Below are positions 1,184-10,443 of a stretch of DNA of 10,443 nucleotides, piece by piece. Each line of letters begins with the position of its first letter. Position 1 is the stretch's first letter. Source of the DNA: Candidatus Sumerlaeota bacterium (GTDB lineage: Bacteria; CG03; SLGR01). The notes beneath the pieces were generated by a model. That model did not search any database, was not told the origin of the DNA, and was given only the letters and a program-made list of their open reading frames with translations. The stretch is taken from contig SLGR01000049.1 in the NCBI GenBank assembly GCA_007136585.1, forward strand, positions 1 through 10,443, read 5' to 3'. A program made the position numbers and the translations under genes.

Positions 1184-2197
1184 GTGGACAGAATAAAAGT
1201 GCTTGTCATTGACGATGAGCCGGTATATTCGGATATCATAGAGAAATCTCTCGACACCTCCCGTTATCAGGTGCTGAAGAGTTTCAGCGCCTCAGAAGGG
1301 ATTGCATCATCCTTAAAAAACAAGCCTGATGTAATACTTCTTGACCGCAACCTGCCCGATATGAGCGGGACAGATGTATGCAGGAAACTGAAGCAGACTC
1401 CGGAAACAAAGAACATCCCTGTCCTGATGTTCACCTCGCTTGCCGCGGTTAAAAACAGAGTGGAAGGACTTAACTCCGGGGCTGACGATTACATAACCAA
1501 ACCTTTTGAACCGGAAGAGCTCAAAGCCAGGATAGATGCGGCGGCAAGGCGCCGGGACGTCGCGCGCCAGGAGATCCTTGAGAGTATGAGAACAGTTGAA
1601 CGTTATATATCAGAAAGCCTCTCGGAAAGGCTCAAGTCGGGAAAAGATCAGTTACTTAAATCCGGAAAGGCCGCTATCCTTTTTTGCGACCTCTGCGGAT
1701 TCACGGAAATATCCTCAACACTGCAACCCGGGGATATAAGGAATCTGCTTAACTCCTATTTTGGCATAATATCCGAATCCGTATACTCCCACTGCGGCTC
1801 CATAGACAAGTTCATAGGTGACGCCGCAATGGCTGTATTTGCCTCTGATAAAGGGAACTTCACCGCAAGCGCGGCAGAGGCTGCCATTGAGATACACAGA
1901 AGGGTCCCGGGGGTTAAGGACCCGGAAGGAAAACCCCTCAAGGTGCGCTCCGGGATACATACAGGCGAAGTAATGACCGATTCCGTCGGAACCGAAAAAC
2001 GCTCTGATTACACGGTTATAGGGACAGCGGTAAACCTCGCCTCCAAGCTTCAGCAGGAGGCCGAACCCGGCCAGATACTCATAAGCTCCTCTGCGGCCCG
2101 CGAGGCCGGGATCACCCGGATGACCCGGGTTATTACTTCAGGAGAGTTTAATAAAAGATACGGGATAGAACCATGCGAGGTCATTTATGAGACTTAA
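1184..2197 (+). CDS. Response regulator fused to class III adenylate/guanylate cyclase
   Basis: A 337-residue two-domain protein. Residues 3-120 are a complete receiver: acidic pair Asp10/Asp11, phospho-acceptor Asp54 (LLDRNLPD), Thr84 and Lys106 (TKP). A helical linker with RYISESLSERL (about 140-150) leads to a class III cyclase domain (about 160-330). Visible active-site residues are metal-binding Asp169 (FCDLCGFT) and Asp213 (FIGD), purine-selecting Lys209 and Asp275 (SDYTVIG), and Asn284. The Lys/Asp pair favours ATP, so cAMP is the likely product. The usual transition-state Arg four residues after the Asn is Lys288 here, which could lower or alter activity. The start is GTG at 1184, chosen because AAAGGA (1172-1177) lies at good spacing and the receiver begins at once. 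Phosphorylation by the downstream kinase probably controls the cyclase; the coding regions overlap by 11 nt, implying coupled translation. Confidence 0.9.
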   Translation: MDRIKVLVIDDEPVYSDIIEKSLDTSRYQVLKSFSASEGIASSLKNKPDVILLDRNLPDMSGTDVCRKLKQTPETKNIPVLMFTSLAAVKNRVEGLNSGADDYITKPFEPEELKARIDAAARRRDVARQEILESMRTVERYISESLSERLKSGKDQLLKSGKAAILFCDLCGFTEISSTLQPGDIRNLLNSYFGIISESVYSHCGSIDKFIGDAAMAVFASDKGNFTASAAEAAIEIHRRVPGVKDPEGKPLKVRSGIHTGEVMTDSVGTEKRSDYTVIGTAVNLASKLQQEAEPGQILISSSAAREAGITRMTRVITSGEFNKRYGIEPCEVIYET

Positions 2198-3665
2198 AAC
2201 AAAGTTCAGCGTTTTCACCACATTCTTCGTGGTTACAGTAGCCCTGGGGCTCAGCGCTCTCTTCCTTATATTTGAAGCCAGGTACCTTGTGCGAAGAGGC
2301 AGGGAGGGGCAGCTCTCGCTGGCCCGCGACGCCGCCAAGATATGCCGGGAATCGGTCATAATGGAAGACGAGCTCTTTGCGATGAATTATTTCAACTCCG
2401 CCGTCCAGGCAAGGGGGGTAATATACCTGAGTTTTGCCGACACCTCCGGGGAGATTCAGATACATACCGACACTTCGCTTATCGGCACTCTTATAACCCC
2501 GGAGATGGCCGGGGATTCCGAAGGTTCCGAAGAGGCCCTTCTTCACACCTACCAGGACAGCCTCGGGGAGACCGTCTCCGTAGCCTCTATGCCGGTAATG
2601 GTAAGCGATACGCGCCTGGGAACGGTATTCGTGGGGTTCTCAGAGGGTATTCTCAGGGATTCCATACAGGAGAGCATAGCCGCAACCACCAGACGGATAA
2701 TAGCCGTAACCCTCATAATGCTTATTATAGGAATAATATCCGCTTTAATTTTGGCCTCAAAAATGATAGACCCCATTGACAGGCTTGCCTGGGGCGCGCG
2801 CCGGATAGGGGACGGGTCCCTTGATCACAGGATAGACGTAACCTCAAGAGACGAGCTGGGAGAGCTCTCGGGCGAGTTCAACGCAATGGCGGAACGCCTC
2901 AAGGAGCTGGACGATATGAAGGATAACTTCGTCTACAGCCTTACCCACGACCTCCGCTCGCCTCTAAGCGCGGTAATGGGGTACATATCCCTGATGCTGA
3001 AAGGCGTCTTTGACCCGCTCACCCGGAAACAGGAGAGCACCCTTAAGGATGTAAAATCCATCTGCCACAGGCTCCTGGACCTTATAGGCGATATCCTTGA
3101 TTACGCCAAGGTTAAATCCGGAAGTATAGAGATAGAACCCGAAGAGGCTGATTTCAGGCAGATAATACAGGGGATCATAAAAACACTTGAACCGCTCGGA
3201 AGGGAGAAGAACGTGACCCTTGAAGCGGAGATGCCCCCTGAACCGGTGCCGGCATTTATTGACGCCGGGAAGGTGGAGCGCCTTACCGTAAACCTTGTCT
3301 CAAACGCCCTGAAGTTCACTCCCGAGGGCGGTTCGGTAAAGGTGACCCTTTCCAGGGGGCCCGGGGATATCCAAGTATCCGTCTCGGATACCGGGATAGG
3401 GATACCCCCGGAGCATATAGACACAATATTCGGGGAGTTCACCCAGCTCCGGGAGCACCAGAAACACTCCCGCATAAAAGGGACCGGAATAGGCCTTTCC
3501 ATAGCAAAGGCCATAGTTGAGGCTCACGGAGGAAAGATCTGGGTGGAGAGCGAGATGGAAAAAGGCACCGTCTTTCATTATACCGTACCGGATGGGCGCA
3601 AAAACAGCGGGCCCTTGAACAAGACACCTGATGATAAGAACGGGCAGGAGGAAAAAGGAGAGTAA
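2187..3665 (+). CDS. Transmembrane sensor histidine kinase (Cache-like sensor, HAMP, HisKA, HATPase)
   Basis: A 492-residue inner-membrane kinase. A first membrane segment (about 9-29) and a second (about 171-190) enclose roughly 140 extracytoplasmic residues. Their alternating strands around 77-92 and 128-152 resemble a single Cache/PAS-like ligand sensor. A HAMP domain follows (about 192-244, with DELGELSGEFNAMAERL). The HisKA helix has phospho-acceptor His254 in YSLTHDLRSPL. The ATPase domain shows the N box (VNLVSNALKFTP, Asn369/Asn373), G1 (DTGIGI, 401-406), F box (FGEF, 415-418) and G2 (GTGIGLS, 432-438), so all catalytic motifs are intact. The start ATG at 2187 lies inside the cyclase gene, with GAGG at 2177-2180 as ribosome-binding site. 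The last about 20 residues are hydrophilic and look disordered. Its partners are most simply the receiver proteins on either side; the ligand is unknown. Confidence 0.93.
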   Translation: MRLKTKFSVFTTFFVVTVALGLSALFLIFEARYLVRRGREGQLSLARDAAKICRESVIMEDELFAMNYFNSAVQARGVIYLSFADTSGEIQIHTDTSLIGTLITPEMAGDSEGSEEALLHTYQDSLGETVSVASMPVMVSDTRLGTVFVGFSEGILRDSIQESIAATTRRIIAVTLIMLIIGIISALILASKMIDPIDRLAWGARRIGDGSLDHRIDVTSRDELGELSGEFNAMAERLKELDDMKDNFVYSLTHDLRSPLSAVMGYISLMLKGVFDPLTRKQESTLKDVKSICHRLLDLIGDILDYAKVKSGSIEIEPEEADFRQIIQGIIKTLEPLGREKNVTLEAEMPPEPVPAFIDAGKVERLTVNLVSNALKFTPEGGSVKVTLSRGPGDIQVSVSDTGIGIPPEHIDTIFGEFTQLREHQKHSRIKGTGIGLSIAKAIVEAHGGKIWVESEMEKGTVFHYTVPDGRKNSGPLNKTPDDKNGQEEKGE

Positions 3666-3668
3666 GAA

Positions 3669-4457
3669 ATGGATATGAAAAAAGTTCTTGTGGTTGATGA
3701 CGAGAAACACTGGATGAACCTTTTCAGGTCAATACTCCAGGATTACAACTTTGAGATATTTGAGGCCTTTGACGGAAAGGCGGGGGTTGAGAAGGCAAAA
3801 CAGCTCAAGCCGGAACTTATAATCCTGGATAACAAGATGCCGGGAATGACCGGCCTTGAGGCCGCCAGGGTTTTCAGAAGCGAGCCCTCCCTGAAGAACA
3901 CCCCAATACTTATGGCAACGGCGATGGACTTCTCCGAGAGTATGGTGGATTACGTTAAAATGGATGTCCACGACTTTATAAAGAAACCTTTCGAGGTAAA
4001 GGATCTTATGGAGAAGATAGAGAAACTGACCGGCCCTGTCTCGCACAAGGCCGAGTTCGAGTACTCTTTTTCCGAGAAGAAAAAGCTCCTCTCCTGCTTC
4101 ATAAACGAAGAGAACAGCCTGTATATGAAAAACAGCATCAAAAAAGACAGGTACGAAATAATAAACGCAAAAGACAGCTCCGAGCTGCTTGAAAAGGCCC
4201 TGAAGGAAAACCCTGACGCCATTGTAACCGGGGCGGCAAACGCAGGCTGGAGCAGCTATATGGGTGTAAAACTCCTTCAGAACTCACTCATAAAAGGCAT
4301 ACCCATAATAATGGACCTGGCCGACTCTGATTCGGACGAGCTTACAAGGACCGTGGTAAAGACCGGGAAAAGGTATTTTCTCGTTACCCCGATAGAGGCC
4401 GGGGATATAGAAAAACACCTTCTTAAGAAAAGTTCGGGAGAAATCGGACTGGGTTAG
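3669..4457 (+). CDS. Response regulator with a second, degenerate receiver domain
   Basis: A 262-residue cytoplasmic protein. Residues 4-120 are a canonical receiver: Asp10/Asp11, phospho-acceptor Asp54 (IILDNKMPGM), Thr84 and Lys106 (KKPF). Residues about 135-255 repeat the receiver pattern of strands and helices without its chemistry. The position matching the phospho-acceptor is a glycine (Gly188 in IVTGAANAG), and the conserved Lys before Pro is Thr240 (VTPIE). This half therefore looks like a pseudo-receiver that binds rather than accepts phosphate. There is no DNA-binding or enzymatic output domain, so it may act by protein contact or as a relay intermediate. AAAGGAG (3654-3660) precedes ATG 3669 by 8 nt; an in-frame ATG at 3675 is a possible alternative start. 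It begins 3 nt after the kinase stop and ends with tandem stops TAG TAA. Confidence 0.88.
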   Translation: MDMKKVLVVDDEKHWMNLFRSILQDYNFEIFEAFDGKAGVEKAKQLKPELIILDNKMPGMTGLEAARVFRSEPSLKNTPILMATAMDFSESMVDYVKMDVHDFIKKPFEVKDLMEKIEKLTGPVSHKAEFEYSFSEKKKLLSCFINEENSLYMKNSIKKDRYEIINAKDSSELLEKALKENPDAIVTGAANAGWSSYMGVKLLQNSLIKGIPIIMDLADSDSDELTRTVVKTGKRYFLVTPIEAGDIEKHLLKKSSGEIGLG

Positions 4458-4466
4458 TAAATAAAC

Positions 4467-5363
4467 TTAGAAAAAGGTGCCCAGAGTAAGGCTGTGGGTA
4501 TCCCCGAGGTCGCCGTAGGGGATAAAGGCGTAATCAAAACTGAGACGGTTCCATTCTACTCCGAACCCTGTGTGAACCCCGCTTAAACCGTCCGTATCGG
4601 AGCGGCTCCCGTAACCTGCCCGGAGGGATAAAAGCCCGTGGATACGCCCCTCGGCCCCCAAGTTAAAACTGAAATCCCCGTCCAGGGGCTGGTTTATATC
4701 CGCCGCTACAATAACCGGGTACCCCGGCACATCCCACCCGGCCCCGGCCTTGAAATTCAGGGGAAGCCTTTTTCCTTTTATCGGCGGCCCTATGTTCTGG
4801 ATCCCGGCGCCGAAAGTTATATCTTCCCTGAAGAAATACTTTGCGCCCAGATCTGCTCCGAAACCTCCGGCCTTCGAGTTATCAATACGCTGGTTTATTA
4901 TCTTAACGCTGAGACCCGCGTCAAGCTTCCCGGAGATAATATTTCCGCCCCATCCCAGCATAAACGCGGTCTCCAGGCTGCTGAAGGTATCGGAAGTCTC
5001 AACCAGGTACCCCAGGGAATCCTCCCGGGTCCTATCCACACGGTCGGAGTAAAGGGCCATAGCTCCCGCAGAAAAGACCCCGAGGTTTCCCACAGGCTCG
5101 GCATAGGAGAAGAACGCGCAGTTCAGACCCTCAAAATAAAAGAGATGGGAAAATATAACGCCGCCCTCCTCAAGCCCTCCAAGTCCGGCCGGGTTACTGT
5201 AAAGACTTCCGGCTCCGGATGCCGAAGCCGCGTAAGCTCCACCCATTGCCGCCTCCCGCGCCAAGGGCTCTACCATAAGAAAACGGGCCGCCGAGGAACC
5301 GGCAGGCTCCGCGGAAGACCACCCGGCGGAAAGAACAAAAACGGCTATCAGGATCTTTCTCAC
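4467..5363 (-). CDS. PorV/PorQ-family outer-membrane protein
   Basis: A 298-residue protein with a short signal peptide (MRKILIAVFVLSAGWSSA, cleavage probably near residue 18). The mature N-terminus has the family signature AREAAMGGAYAA followed by SLYSNPAGL (about 35-61). The rest alternates short amphipathic strands and turns rich in Gly and aromatic residues, and it ends in Thr-Phe-Phe, as expected of a beta barrel with a terminal aromatic. In type IX secretion, PorV carries proteins with a C-terminal sorting domain from the translocon to the surface-attachment complex; other members of this broad family have no assigned role. The start is GTG at 5363, overlapping the TGA of the preceding giant surface-protein gene (GTGA), with GGGGTGG just upstream as a possible ribosome-binding site. 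Co-translation with a protein carrying such a domain supports a shuttle or anchoring role, but specificity for that partner is inference. Confidence 0.85.
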   Translation of the reverse strand: MRKILIAVFVLSAGWSSAEPAGSSAARFLMVEPLAREAAMGGAYAASASGAGSLYSNPAGLGGLEEGGVIFSHLFYFEGLNCAFFSYAEPVGNLGVFSAGAMALYSDRVDRTREDSLGYLVETSDTFSSLETAFMLGWGGNIISGKLDAGLSVKIINQRIDNSKAGGFGADLGAKYFFREDITFGAGIQNIGPPIKGKRLPLNFKAGAGWDVPGYPVIVAADINQPLDGDFSFNLGAEGRIHGLLSLRAGYGSRSDTDGLSGVHTGFGVEWNRLSFDYAFIPYGDLGDTHSLTLGTFF

Positions 5364-8300
5364 CTTACCACCCCTATCTTCCCCGAAGAACTGTTCCCGT
5401 CACCGTCTGTTATAAGGTATATGTACATACCCATACCTACCCTTTCGCCGGAGCTGTTGCGCCCGTCCCATTCGGCCCTGCCGCTTAAACCGTCATTTGA
5501 GAGAGTCCCCGGTTTCAAGGCTTTTACCAGGCGTCCCGTAACGTCATAAATCTCTATAAGCGCGTTCTGACTGAGCCCCTGGAACTTGACCGTCCCCCTC
5601 ACCGCCTCGGAGAACCTTACCGGGTTCGGATACACAACAGCCCCCCTGAGGTTATCGCTGTAGGATGAGCCTATAGCAAAAACCGAAAACCTCCTGACCT
5701 GAGCCGTGACAACCCCCCTGGAAATATCAGGGCCGTTATCGCCCCCGTCAGAGACAAGTTCCCAGGCGGAACTCCGCTCGTTCAGTCTGAGTATCCTGAG
5801 CGCCTCCACCGGTATGGAAGTCTCATCCTCCCTGCCGTCACCGTTTGTATCCAGGTAGGGTATCTCTATCCTTATGAACCCCTCAAAATCCCCGTACAAC
5901 TCCTCTCCGGGTCCGTATGCGTCAAACCCCCGGAGGGAATACGCGACCACCCTCCCGTCGGGAAGTTTTCCTGTAGCCGTATCGGCTCTATCCTTCTCGG
6001 CCGCTCCGAGCTCCTCCGGCATCCGTATGGAAATCCTTGAGTTCTCAGAGAGAACTCCCGGGTCTATTATAACCCTGGTCCCGGGATCACCTGTAGCGGC
6101 GACCGTTCCGCCTGTACCCGCATCGACCACAGCCGTGACCGCTAAATCAGCGTATCCGGAGGCCTCCTGCGCCGTGACAAGGACCCTGTTATTTCCGGAA
6201 AACCCTCCCGCTGCCGTAAATACGGAAGAGACCTCCCCGGAAGCATCCGAGATAGCGGTAATCACGCTTAAAGAGCCGCTCCCCGTTATAACCTCAAAGC
6301 GCGCCTCCGCGCCCGATACCGGGTTTCCTTCCGAATCCTTTATGAGGGCTTTTATATCAGAGCTCTCCCCGGAGATTATCTCTGAAGGATGAGCGCTTAC
6401 AAGCACCTCGGAGGGTATCGCCATTACCTCCGGCCCCTGCGAAAGAAGAACCGGGTCCCCGGAGGCGGCGGTCCCGTAGGAGTCATAAGACTCAAAATAA
6501 TACCCGTACTCCGTCCCCGGAAGGCCAAGGCTGACAGAATAAGCGTATACAGCCCCGCTAAGGGGGTCTCCCTTAACGAGCTCCATCTCAAAGGGGCTCC
6601 CCTCTATCGCCTCACCGCCCCTTGTTATATGCACCCTGGGGTACCCCTGGGCCGGAGCCTGCCCGGCGGGGTTCTGAGCTCTCACCCTGTATTCAAAGAC
6701 GGTATCTGTATCGCCTTCCGCGGGGCTTACTCCTGAGGATTCGTACCCGGGCTCTCCTGTCCAGGATAAGAGAGTTGGCGCATAAAGTGTTGCCGTTGTA
6801 ACGACGGTTCCGTACAGGCTCGCGTGCCCGTCACTGTTATAGGCCCTGACCCTGTACGAGTAATCGGTGCCGCTATCAAGTCTCGTATCCGTATAGGATC
6901 TGGCGGTCCATTCCGCGTCCAGGTCCTTAAGCACTTTAACAGCCGTAAGAAAATCAGCGTCCGTTGACCTCTCAATACCCCAAACCGTGCCGTCCGGGTT
7001 CTGGTTCGACTCCCAGGTGAATGTGAGGCTTGAATACCCAACCGAGACGAAAGACGTATCCGCAGGCGGAGCCGCAAGGGTAAATACCTCCACGTCGTCA
7101 GAACGGCCTATTAACCCGAACTCGTTCCCTGAATAAACGTATCTCGTAAACCCGGTATTCGGGGTTAACCCTTCGGTCTCGTACCAGGTAGTGCTCCCCT
7201 GCCCGGAGAGGCTGGCAAGAAATACGTCCCCGGCTGAATCGTATATGTGGTAATAAGTCGCGCCGGCGGCAAGCTCCCACTCCCAGCGTATCGCTCCCGT
7301 TGATAGGGCTGCGCCGCGGAAATCCCCGGGGCTGCCGTATACGACCCCGGTATTGCCACCGTCAGAAAAATTCCAGTTGTATGTGTCTTCTATATGCTCT
7401 TTTCTCTCAGCCGGGAGACCTAGGCTGTGCTGCGCGTTTCCGGCATGAAACGAAGGTCCACTTTGAAGCCCAAGCTCCGACCAGGCGATAAGGAGTCTAT
7501 CGTAATTTTCGTTTGAAAAAGATGTGTTACGTAGAAAATTCGTAAAGTTTGAGCAGTTTACGGGCTCCCATCCTGAGATATCACCGTAAAAACTTGAGGC
7601 CCCGTCAAACATCTCCGCCATATGCACGACGGAAGAAACATCCCAGTTGTTTAGATCCTGGTTAAATGAGGTTGCCCCGCTGAACATATTTCTTATGGAA
7701 GTTACGTTTGAGACATCCCATCCCCCGATATCCCGGTTAAAGGAAGTGGCGTCCTGGAACATATAACGCATATCTCCGACTGAGGATGTGACCCATTCGG
7801 AAATATCGCCATTAAAAGAAATGGCCCCGTCAAACATAGAATCCATCCTCTCAACAGACGAGACATCCCAGCCGTTTAAACTCTGGTTGAACTCAAGGGC
7901 TCCTTCAAACATATTCCTCATATCTGTGACCGTTGAGACATCCCAATCGGAGATATCCTGATTGAACTTAAGGGCATCCTCAAACATACTATCCATTGTC
8001 AGTACGGAGCCGAGGGTCCAGTCCCCTATATCCGAGTTAAACTCTCTTGCGTCAGAGAACATATCTTCCATATTTTCCACCGATGAGAGGACCCAGCCCG
8101 AAAGGTTTCCGTTAAACTCCCTCGCGCCATCAAACATCTGTTCCATATCGATTACTGATGATACATCCCAGTTATTAAGGTCCTGGTTGAAAACGCGGGC
8201 CCTGTAAAACATTCTGTACATATTCTCAACATTGGATACATCCCAGGCGGTATATTGATCACCTGGCCCCTCATTAACAACCATAGTATTCAGGGGTTTG

Positions 8301-10443
8301 TTAAATGCGCTGGCATTACCGAACATCTCATACATATTAGTCACATTTGAAGTATCCCAGGCGTTTATATCGCCGTCAAAGCTTGAAGCACCCCAAAACA
8401 TTTGAAACATGTCAGTAACAGAAGAAACATCCCACCCGTTTAAGTCCTGGTTAAACTTGCTCGCGCCCCGGAACATCTGAGTCATCTCCTGAAGGCTTGA
8501 AGTATCCCACCCCCCTATCGGCTGGTTAAACTCGTCCGCCCCGTAAAACATCCTGGACATATCGGTAACCTGAGAAGTATTCCAGGAGCTTATATCGCTG
8601 TTAAACTCCCTGGCATTATAAAACATCCGGTTCATATCGGTAACCTGAGAAACATTCCAGGAACTAATATCCCCGTTAAAAATTTCGGCAGCATTAAACA
8701 TCTGGCTCATATCGGTAACCTGCGAGGTATTCCAGGTGCTTATATCACCGTCAAAAACATAATTATTATAGAACATACTCCCCATATTCGTGACCTGCGA
8801 GGTATCCCACCCGCTTAAATCACCGTTAAAACCAAATGCTCCATGAAACATATCATACATATCCGTCACATTGGCCGAGGCCTCGTCAAAGAAATCAGCG
8901 GCGGTAAATGATGAGATATTGGTCGCGCCCATAAACATATTCCTAGCGCTTGTTATACCCGTTACTCCCGGAGAGACCGGGGTTAGTATATCCCTCAAAC
9001 GGGCAGGAGTACCTCCGGGGTGAAAACTTATCCGGCTTGCCTCGCCCCGGAGCATTATTGTATATGTTCCCGCCGCGGCGTAGGAATTGGAGGGAAAAAG
9101 TGGGGTCCCGTCAGCTATACTGGTAAAACCCTCTCCGACCCCCCAGTCTATCTCCAAGCCCGAAGCATCGGCAACATGAAAAGAAAAGGACTGGTTTGCT
9201 CCTGTAGTCTGGATTGTGAATATAAACGGGGCGTGAAGCGTAACGGTGGAGACGTTCACGTAATCTGTAAGAACCCCGTCATTATTATAAGCCGCAACCC
9301 TGTAATAATAAGTGGTTGAATACACCAGCCCCGTATCAGGGTAAAATGTATCCTTATGATCATCTTCAATATCAAAGAGCGGTTCCAGGTTCTGAGTAAA
9401 ACTGACAGTAGAGCGCTCAAGCCTCCATCTCGTATATCCGGGGTTATCCCCCGATGTCCAGTTTACTGTAAGGCTGTCAAAAGTAACCTCGGAAACCCAG
9501 GCTGATGTAGACGGAGCCGCGAGAGTATAAAAGGTTGCCGGGGGGGAGAGGGGACCGTAACCTGCTGAGTTATAGGCCCTTATGTACCTGCCGTAGGGGG
9601 TATTAGGGCTTAACCCCGTCTCCTCGTACTCCACTGCGTCACCCGGCTCGGCGACTACGCTGCTGTCAGTAGCCCGGTAGAGCGTATAACCGTCCGACCC
9701 CTCTGCCGGGTCCCATCTCCAGGTAATTGACTCTGCCGTAACCGCTGCCGTTGAAAGATATGCCGACTGCCCCGGATAAGTCCTTACTGAAATCTCAGGA
9801 GAGTAAAACCCGGTATTTATCACGGTATCGTTATTTACCGCGTACACCCTGTAATAGTATGTGCCCCCCGCCAAAAGCCCGGTATCTGTAAATTCTATGC
9901 CGGAAGTGGATACTGCCGTATGATAGGAGGCAAACTCGTCTGTTGACCTTCTAAGTTCGTATAAGTAAGCACCAGAATCGTTCCAGGAAATTTCGGCGGT
10001 GGAAGAACTGAACGCCACTGCGTCAACGGTATCGGGTGGAATAGCGAGAGTATATACCTGCGCAATATCAGAAGGATCGGATAACCCTCCCTCGCCTCCT
10101 GCCCTTACATACCTTGAGTACTCCGTATTGGGGGCAAGCCCGTCGGTCTCATACCAGGTTGTCGTTCCCTGCCCTTCAAGGCCCGCGAGAAACTCATCAT
10201 CCGAAACCCTGTATATGTAATAGTAGGTAGCGTACGAAGTTATATCCCACTCCCATTTTATAGAGTAACTTGACTGGGCAATACCATATAACCCCTCCGG
10301 TTCTAAGGGGGGATACCAAAGCCCGGTATCGCCGCCGTCTGTTATCGTCCACCCGAAGGTATCTTTTATATACTGCCTCCGGTCTGCGGGCAGCCCCAGG
10401 CTGTATGTTGCGTTTCCTGCGTTAAATGAAAGATCGCTGTTTA
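5360..10443 (-). CDS. Giant modular surface protein: FN3 / BspA (DUF285) repeats / Big-1 / FlgD-like C-terminus (5' partial)
   Basis: The frame is open from the stop (5362-5360) to the window edge, giving 1693 residues and no start; the GTG at 10018 is internal to an FN3 domain. Residues counted from 10441 are as follows. 1-40: end of a BspA block. 43-136, 137-223, 224-310 and 311-405: FN3-like domains with the YYYRVYAVNN-type strand. 406-537: PKD-like cap (EIDWG, AAAGTYTI) plus two poor repeats. 538-950: sixteen BspA/DUF285 repeats. 951-1032: terminal cap. 1033-1126 and 1127-1222: FN3. 1223-1339: beta-rich linker beginning WTGEPGY. 1340-1441: Big-1-like Ig domain. 1442-1596: stalk with the acidic loop DTNGDGREDE, which may bind calcium. 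1597-1693: FlgD-Ig/type IX-like C-terminal domain (VYPNP). No cysteine-rich or catalytic motif is evident, so adhesion or surface-layer function is likely. The N-terminus and signal peptide lie outside the window. Confidence 0.9.
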   Translation of the reverse strand, partial: NSDLSFNAGNATYSLGLPADRRQYIKDTFGWTITDGGDTGLWYPPLEPEGLYGIAQSSYSIKWEWDITSYATYYYIYRVSDDEFLAGLEGQGTTTWYETDGLAPNTEYSRYVRAGGEGGLSDPSDIAQVYTLAIPPDTVDAVAFSSSTAEISWNDSGAYLYELRRSTDEFASYHTAVSTSGIEFTDTGLLAGGTYYYRVYAVNNDTVINTGFYSPEISVRTYPGQSAYLSTAAVTAESITWRWDPAEGSDGYTLYRATDSSVVAEPGDAVEYEETGLSPNTPYGRYIRAYNSAGYGPLSPPATFYTLAAPSTSAWVSEVTFDSLTVNWTSGDNPGYTRWRLERSTVSFTQNLEPLFDIEDDHKDTFYPDTGLVYSTTYYYRVAAYNNDGVLTDYVNVSTVTLHAPFIFTIQTTGANQSFSFHVADASGLEIDWGVGEGFTSIADGTPLFPSNSYAAAGTYTIMLRGEASRISFHPGGTPARLRDILTPVSPGVTGITSARNMFMGATNISSFTAADFFDEASANVTDMYDMFHGAFGFNGDLSGWDTSQVTNMGSMFYNNYVFDGDISTWNTSQVTDMSQMFNAAEIFNGDISSWNVSQVTDMNRMFYNAREFNSDISSWNTSQVTDMSRMFYGADEFNQPIGGWDTSSLQEMTQMFRGASKFNQDLNGWDVSSVTDMFQMFWGASSFDGDINAWDTSNVTNMYEMFGNASAFNKPLNTMVVNEGPGDQYTAWDVSNVENMYRMFYRARVFNQDLNNWDVSSVIDMEQMFDGAREFNGNLSGWVLSSVENMEDMFSDAREFNSDIGDWTLGSVLTMDSMFEDALKFNQDISDWDVSTVTDMRNMFEGALEFNQSLNGWDVSSVERMDSMFDGAISFNGDISEWVTSSVGDMRYMFQDATSFNRDIGGWDVSNVTSIRNMFSGATSFNQDLNNWDVSSVVHMAEMFDGASSFYGDISGWEPVNCSNFTNFLRNTSFSNENYDRLLIAWSELGLQSGPSFHAGNAQHSLGLPAERKEHIEDTYNWNFSDGGNTGVVYGSPGDFRGAALSTGAIRWEWELAAGATYYHIYDSAGDVFLASLSGQGSTTWYETEGLTPNTGFTRYVYSGNEFGLIGRSDDVEVFTLAAPPADTSFVSVGYSSLTFTWESNQNPDGTVWGIERSTDADFLTAVKVLKDLDAEWTARSYTDTRLDSGTDYSYRVRAYNSDGHASLYGTVVTTATLYAPTLLSWTGEPGYESSGVSPAEGDTDTVFEYRVRAQNPAGQAPAQGYPRVHITRGGEAIEGSPFEMELVKGDPLSGAVYAYSVSLGLPGTEYGYYFESYDSYGTAASGDPVLLSQGPEVMAIPSEVLVSAHPSEIISGESSDIKALIKDSEGNPVSGAEARFEVITGSGSLSVITAISDASGEVSSVFTAAGGFSGNNRVLVTAQEASGYADLAVTAVVDAGTGGTVAATGDPGTRVIIDPGVLSENSRISIRMPEELGAAEKDRADTATGKLPDGRVVAYSLRGFDAYGPGEELYGDFEGFIRIEIPYLDTNGDGREDETSIPVEALRILRLNERSSAWELVSDGGDNGPDISRGVVTAQVRRFSVFAIGSSYSDNLRGAVVYPNPVRFSEAVRGTVKFQGLSQNALIEIYDVTGRLVKALKPGTLSNDGLSGRAEWDGRNSSGERVGMGMYIYLITDGDGNSSSGKIGVVR
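5363..5653 (-). other. C-terminal FlgD-Ig / type IX-like sorting domain of the surface protein
   Basis: This segment encodes the last 97 residues. They show the hallmarks of this domain: VVYPNPVR at the start, a middle strand IEIYDVTGRLVKAL, the WDGRNSSGERVGMGMYIY segment, and a short final strand ending KIGVVR. In type IX secretion such domains direct export and are cleaved during surface attachment. In several other phyla the same fold closes large secreted proteins without proof of that route. Confidence 0.75.
7064..7450 (-). repeat. Downstream copy of duplicated BspA-tail + FN3 module
   Basis: Encodes FHAGNAQHSLGLPAE onward through DGGNTG and the next FN3 domain with GQGSTTWYETEGL. Its first codon is 2,976 nt (992 codons) from that of the copy at 10034-10426, in the same frame and orientation, so both are parts of one protein. 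Codon-level divergence shows the duplication is not very recent. Confidence 0.85.
7592..8830 (-). repeat. BspA/DUF285 tandem repeat array (16 units of 25 codons)
   Basis: Sixteen consecutive in-frame units follow the pattern FN-x-D-[IL]-x-x-W-[DN]-x-S-x-V-x-x-M-x-x-MF-x-x-A-x-x. Fifteen are exactly 75 nt. The eighth unit in reading order (8192-8305) is 114 nt because of a 13-residue insertion (MVVNEGPGDQYTA region). A poor copy precedes the array and a capping unit (FYGDISGWEP, from 7591) follows. The repeat belongs to the leucine-rich-like BspA surface-protein family, whose members form elongated solenoids used in binding other cells or host proteins. Confidence 0.92.
10034..10426 (-). repeat. 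Upstream copy of duplicated BspA-tail + FN3 module
   Basis: Encodes FNAGNATYSLGLPAD onward through DGGDTG and then an FN3 domain with GQGTTTWYETDGL. It matches the copy at 7064-7450. In the first 35 residues 21 are identical, and in the later GQG...RYV stretch 17 of 23 are identical. Because the tail normally closes a BspA repeat array, another array probably lies just beyond the window edge. Confidence 0.85.

Follow-up and report, generated by a model that had tools for sequence, protein, structure and literature searches.

Gene pair at the locus

The window, i.e., the whole stretch of DNA analysed (10,443 nucleotides), corresponds to contig C124 in its full length, from the draft genome (1.88 Mb, 257 contigs, 88% complete) of a bacterium of the little-known phylum Candidatus Sumerlaeota. 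Two adjoining genes occupy most of its minus strand. The upstream gene (5360..10441, an open ORF of 1693 aa with its N-terminus beyond the contig end) encodes a giant surface protein, hereafter the cargo, made up of fn3 domains, DUF285/PARCEL repeats, a Big_1-like domain and a C-terminal sorting domain (CTD). The downstream gene (4467..5363, minus strand) encodes a 298-aa PorV/PorQ-family outer-membrane barrel. The TGA stop of the cargo lies at 5362-5360 and the GTG start of the barrel at 5363-5361, and the two codons share four bases (GTGA, 5360..5363, minus strand). This overlap had been reported in an earlier note on this DNA, and its coordinates were confirmed here. The arrangement suggests that cargo and barrel are translationally coupled, and a 4-base overlap of the same kind was seen in 10 of the 26 pairs that formed the comparison set from the same genome.

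The passenger part of the cargo contains its best-scoring DUF285/PARCEL stretch at 8288..8641 (minus strand, residues 601-718; PF03382 with 543 bits in total, and TIGR02167). This repeat family is named after surface lipoproteins of Mycoplasma and Listeria; here its 26-residue repeats form a long block (about 7700-8900, minus strand) inside the cargo of an outer-membrane bacterium. Next to the sorting domain lies a juxta-CTD region (5636..6112, minus strand) that, unlike the remaining passenger, is common to the cargo of a related locus in Endomicrobia described below. On the opposite strand a two-component cluster (1184-4457, plus strand), encoding a response regulator-adenylate cyclase, a HAMP histidine kinase and a response regulator, runs convergently with the barrel gene and ends 9 bases from the barrel stop.

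Family and structure of the barrel and the sorting domain

The barrel was assigned by structure model and fold search as well as by sequence family. It passes the cut-off of the NCBIfam PorV family model (NF033709; 125.9 bits, cut-off 90) and its AlphaFold model has 14 strands (pLDDT 85), in line with the family membership given in the earlier note. The closest solved structures are those of PorV in the type 9 translocon (8gl6_F and 6h3i_F, Z 32.4 and 32.3), followed by FadL and TodX at Z 26-30. An N-terminal signal peptide was recognized by eye, and the periplasmic extension seen in some related barrels is absent from the window copy.

The CTD (5375..5635, minus strand; residues 1603-1689 of 1693) matches the model of type A sorting domains of type IX secretion, TIGR04183, with 29.5 bits at a cut-off of 23, which bears out the earlier description of a giant protein with a FlgD/type IX-like C-terminus. 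The same model matches 25 of 28 tails from this genome at E below 0.01. The window tail stays under the Pfam cut-offs of FlgD_ig (21.8, cut-off 27) and Por_Secre_tail (PF18962; 17.1, cut-off 27), the latter of which is reached by some other paralogues, and it has no match to the type B domain TIGR04131, which matches one of the 28 paralogues. A profile built from the tails of the genome matched the CTDs of PorZ (5m11), FlgD, PorU, NucA and gingipain in the PDB. The CTDs nearest to that of the window are those of PorZ and PorU, and among the T9SS equivalogs the window tail scores best on the PorZ model. The model of the 250 C-terminal cargo residues had an overall pLDDT of 58, and its last 75 residues alone were usable.

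Within the barrel family, the window barrel scores higher with the PorQ model (NF033711, 77.7 bits) than with the PorV model (NF033710, 25.1 bits), both values being below the equivalog cut-offs of 220 and 250, respectively. Of the 21 barrels scanned, every one matches the PorQ model, with best E-values of 5e-34 for PorQ and 2e-22 for PorV at scores far under the same cut-offs. Because the barrel scores nearer to PorQ and the tail nearer to PorZ, the PorQ-PorZ pair, a permanent anchor, is a better analogy than the recycling PorV. The earlier likening of the barrel to the PorV shuttle thus held for the family and the type of cargo, while the closer counterpart is PorQ with PorZ.

Pairing of cargo and barrel genes in the genome and the phylum

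The PorV family model has 34 matches in the genome, 31 of which are usable genes. A CTD gene lies directly upstream on the same strand for 28 of these 31, compared with 2 of the 143 other genes that these contigs carry (Fisher p = 1e-26). The window pair is therefore one among about 28 two-gene units in the genome and belongs to a phylum-wide system. The earlier note had proposed that the cargo has a dedicated barrel; this is supported, with the correction that the pair is one of about 28 and that being dedicated is the general rule here. The pairing is not strict, since some eight of the 37 CTDs found in the genome at E below 1e-5 belong to genes without an adjoining barrel. Most of these orphans are isolated (on contigs C101, C83, C46, C152 and C80), while two (C176 and C203) are of a somewhat different class and lie close to contig ends.

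PorV-family genes were found in all 16 phylum genomes examined, with 4-26 in each, and the summed numbers of CTD and PorV genes were 361 and 255. The correlation between the two numbers per genome (0.84) was discarded as support, as genome size, at 0.76 and 0.83, is a confounder. In a sample of higher-scoring PorV-family genes from relatives, a CTD gene lay directly upstream of 41 out of 50 genes from seven further genomes of the order. In the more distant families f5 and f6 this was so for only 10 of 20, and outside the phylum for 9 of 11; the rates for distant genomes may be underestimates because the CTD profile was built from the genome of the window. Several PorV-family genes per genome are also present in Endomicrobia, Hydrogenedentota, Ignavibacteria, WOR-3 and Zixibacteria. 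The adjoining pair accordingly recurs in related genomes, where the earlier note had suggested looking for it, including an ortholog in an uncultured Endomicrobia bacterium (locus L170). The same note had named as a refutation PorV-like genes of relatives standing beside unrelated genes without such C-termini; these genes were found mostly behind CTD genes.

Some barrel genes of relatives have unusual architectures. In genome G003 (L243, G003:C4:15000-23000) the PorV frame at 3801-6689 is open for 1675 codons, and the called ORF lacks the N-terminal end of the barrel. A cargo-barrel fusion of 1675 aa was considered for this frame and rejected, as it is a stop-free frame without upstream start codons. 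Three loci of other phyla (L258, L259 and L260) encode barrels of 810-893 residues, in which several hundred extra residues, inserted between positions 72 and 76 of the profile, split the PorV match in two.

Co-inheritance of barrels and sorting domains

Over 105 pairs, barrel similarity correlated with CTD similarity at 0.36, as against a mean of 0.12 and a maximum of 0.24 when the CTDs were shuffled within genomes in 500 trials. When barrels that were reciprocal-best between genomes were compared (normalised similarity at least 0.35), the adjoining CTDs were also reciprocal-best in 27 of 33 cases (shuffle mean 1.6, maximum 6). With only dissimilar passengers retained, this held for 10 of 15 barrel pairs (shuffle mean 0.8, maximum 5). 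Judged from these comparisons, barrels and tails co-diversify even where the remainder of the cargo is unrelated. The Endomicrobia locus is a case in point: it carries a pair of the window type with a 4-base overlap, its barrel is 48% identical to that of the window and its CTD is the best match of all to the window CTD, while DUF285 repeats are absent from the stretch of its cargo that was read.

Part of this co-inheritance could be due to linkage alone, because the CTD-coding end of the cargo gene touches the barrel gene. Two observations, and only these, speak against linkage as the full account. The first is contig C204, where two tandem cargos are followed by a single barrel and the first CTD lies 2.5 kb away from it. 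The two CTDs are 99% identical in protein, the passengers about 35%. The second is that the isolated orphan CTDs named above fall into classes for which the genome encodes a barrel at another site, with 42-57% identity. In the C204 tandem (CTD-coding ends at 1150-1457 and 3650-3955 of L067), the last 300 bases of the cargo genes are 90-100% identical and 13 of the 15 differing codons are synonymous; these ends look as if they had been homogenised by gene conversion.

Other components of type IX secretion

The earlier note had held that the absence of a type IX translocon from the genome would speak against its proposal. A divergent Sov/SprA-like homologue was found on contig C230, an ORF of 1727 residues that matches the model in three stretches with 182 bits (cut-off 200) and SprA (6h3i) at E 1e-10. 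ORFs of this kind, of about 1700 residues, are present in 15 of the 16 phylum genomes. The porU homologue that the earlier note had also listed did not turn up: a search covering sortases of the C25 type found no Peptidase_C25, the sortase domain of PorU, in any of the eight genomes that represent the order, of which three are at least 94% complete. A match of the PorU model in the genome of the window was set aside, as it runs through the CTD only. The identical search found Peptidase_C25 in 5 of 8 other members of the phylum. Among the copies read, those of family f5 (L085-L088) have weak similarity to PorU, and the complete ones, about 800 residues long, carry a type A CTD of their own. The models for the motor proteins GldL/GldM (PorL/PorM) had no match in the genome, but they had none in any control genome either.

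Barrels with peptidoglycan-binding extensions

Several barrels of the genome have C-terminal extensions, with an OmpA domain on C91, LysM on C151 and TPR on several others, and these extensions are presumably periplasmic. An OmpA domain is also found on six barrels in four relatives (G003, G007, G008 and G009) and in G012. The PorV-family barrels fused to OmpA or LysM are located at L059:4532-6316, L056:3962-5248, L250, L253, L254, L255 and L256, and in some of them FlgD Ig-like domains or CsgG/FlgO-like parts lie in between. Going by their domain content, the OmpA and LysM fusions would fit an anchoring role of the barrels.

Discussion

We consider it somewhat probable that these genes represent a variant of type IX secretion without a sortase, in which every barrel receives its cognate cargo at the channel and retains it. 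In each unit, a cargo with a type A CTD would be made together with its own coupled PorV/PorQ-family barrel. The cargo would be carried into the periplasm by Sec and pass across the outer membrane through a single Sov/SprA-like channel, at the lateral opening of which its own barrel would dock and grip the CTD. The barrel would then retain the cargo on the cell surface, anchoring it non-covalently and one to one, and the OmpA and LysM domains of some barrels would tie the complex to peptidoglycan. With no sortase to release it by removing the CTD, the barrel would keep its cargo, so that each barrel is probably the permanent surface anchor of its own cargo. A barrel that is not recycled would be needed in an amount equal to the cargo, and we propose this as the reason for the coupled genes and for the gene numbers. 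Observed directly are the pairing, the co-inheritance, the channel homologue, the fused domains and the lack of a detected C25 sortase in the order; secretion, binding and anchoring are inferred from the known families. In Porphyromonas gingivalis, substrates build up on PorV in porU mutants, and in a CTD cleavage mutant the ratio is about 1:1 (PMC5562754).

The barrels could instead be dedicated shuttles that hand the cargo to an unknown attachment enzyme and are then recycled, in which case the pairing would reflect recognition specificity only. The PorV of Bacteroidota passes type A proteins to the sortase complex in this manner (PMC10202324), family f5 of this phylum does have a CTD-bearing C25 peptidase and a sortase unrelated to C25 would have been missed by our search. 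This explanation is nevertheless unlikely in view of the lack of Peptidase_C25 in each of the eight genomes searched from the order, the OmpA and LysM fusions, which suit anchors, and the resemblance of barrel and tail to PorQ and PorZ, which form an uncleaved, anchored pair.

Slightly less likely still is that the pairs are a duplicated cassette without recognition specificity, any barrel serving any CTD and the co-divergence resulting from physical linkage. The CTD-coding end adjoins the barrel start and could recombine with it as a block, and orphan CTDs do exist. In P. gingivalis a single PorV has been proposed as the shuttle, despite more than 30 known substrates (PMC5562754), and PorV can take type A CTDs of varied kinds (PMC12618676). 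A common barrel, however, would not require 28 copies to be retained behind CTD genes. The tandem CTDs on C204 are near-identical despite the distance of the first from the barrel, and the five isolated orphans belong to CTD classes that own a barrel elsewhere.

Finally, it is very improbable that the barrels are FadL-like small-molecule transporters that work with surface binding proteins in SusC/SusD-like nutrient capture, the C-terminal domain being for docking and not a secretion signal: the fold scores of FadL and TodX are similar and FlgD Ig-like domains have other roles, but the nearest solved structures are of PorV in a substrate-bound complex, the tail is nearest to type IX CTDs, a Sov/SprA-like ORF is found alongside the barrels throughout the phylum and the passenger in the window is adhesin-like, with its fn3 domains and PARCEL repeats.

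Extending the anchoring reading, we give about even chances to the view that this is a sortase-less branch of type IX secretion outside Bacteroidota, with one non-recycled barrel per type A cargo, some of them bolted to peptidoglycan, in which CTD-barrel recognition is a specific code of many pairs and not a matter of one universal shuttle. The lineage is a natural experiment on whether barrels of the PorV type turn into permanent anchors without a sortase, and it hints at a system that either preceded the gain of the sortase or followed its loss. The some 28 natural pairs of type A CTDs and barrels also form a large data set for finding the residues that decide recognition.

Dedicated shuttle-substrate pairs are already known for type B proteins; no description was found of a lineage that lacks a detectable sortase and has dozens of type A pairs in each genome. 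A search of the open literature for multiple type A/PorV pairs returned no description, which is not proof of absence. Specific shuttle pairs have been described only for type B proteins with PorP/SprF, and a single PorV is described as the shuttle of all type A proteins (PMC12618676). A review has already suggested that CTDs might be shielded from cleavage by cognate PorV-like barrels (PMC10202324).

The system described here shares with PorV and its type A cargo in P. gingivalis and Flavobacterium johnsoniae the family and fold of the barrel, the CTD class and probably a Sov/SprA-type channel. In those bacteria all type A cargo shares a single PorV, which passes it to the PorU sortase, whereas here there are many barrels, each beside its cargo, and PorU was not detected. 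A closer parallel is the attachment complex of P. gingivalis, where PorQ, a PorV-like barrel, keeps PorZ on the cell surface (PMC5562754). There, too, a PorV/PorQ-family barrel is joined with one type A CTD protein, and it is on the PorQ and PorZ models that the barrel and CTD of the window score highest among the T9SS equivalogs. In contrast to the about 28 pairs with diverse passengers found here, P. gingivalis has one such pair per genome, and it serves LPS delivery.

In its organisation, the system resembles type B secretion with PorP/SprF, such as the SprB-SprF pair of F. johnsoniae (PMC12618676, PMC9143113). In both, the shuttle gene lies directly downstream of the substrate gene and there are many pairs per genome. 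The pairs there are specific, with some orphans sharing a shuttle: in F. johnsoniae, orphan substrates of type B use one common shuttle (PMC12618676), and the orphan CTDs here likewise fall into barrel-owning classes. Type B proteins remain on their own PorP/SprF barrels, some of which are tied to peptidoglycan through PorE (PMC9143113), and the barrels of the present system would likewise serve as surface anchors, some of them linked to peptidoglycan. The two differ in that the order studied here has no detected C25 sortase, that its pairs consist of a type A sorting domain and a PorV/PorQ-family barrel, and that peptidoglycan-binding or TPR parts form one polypeptide with the barrel.
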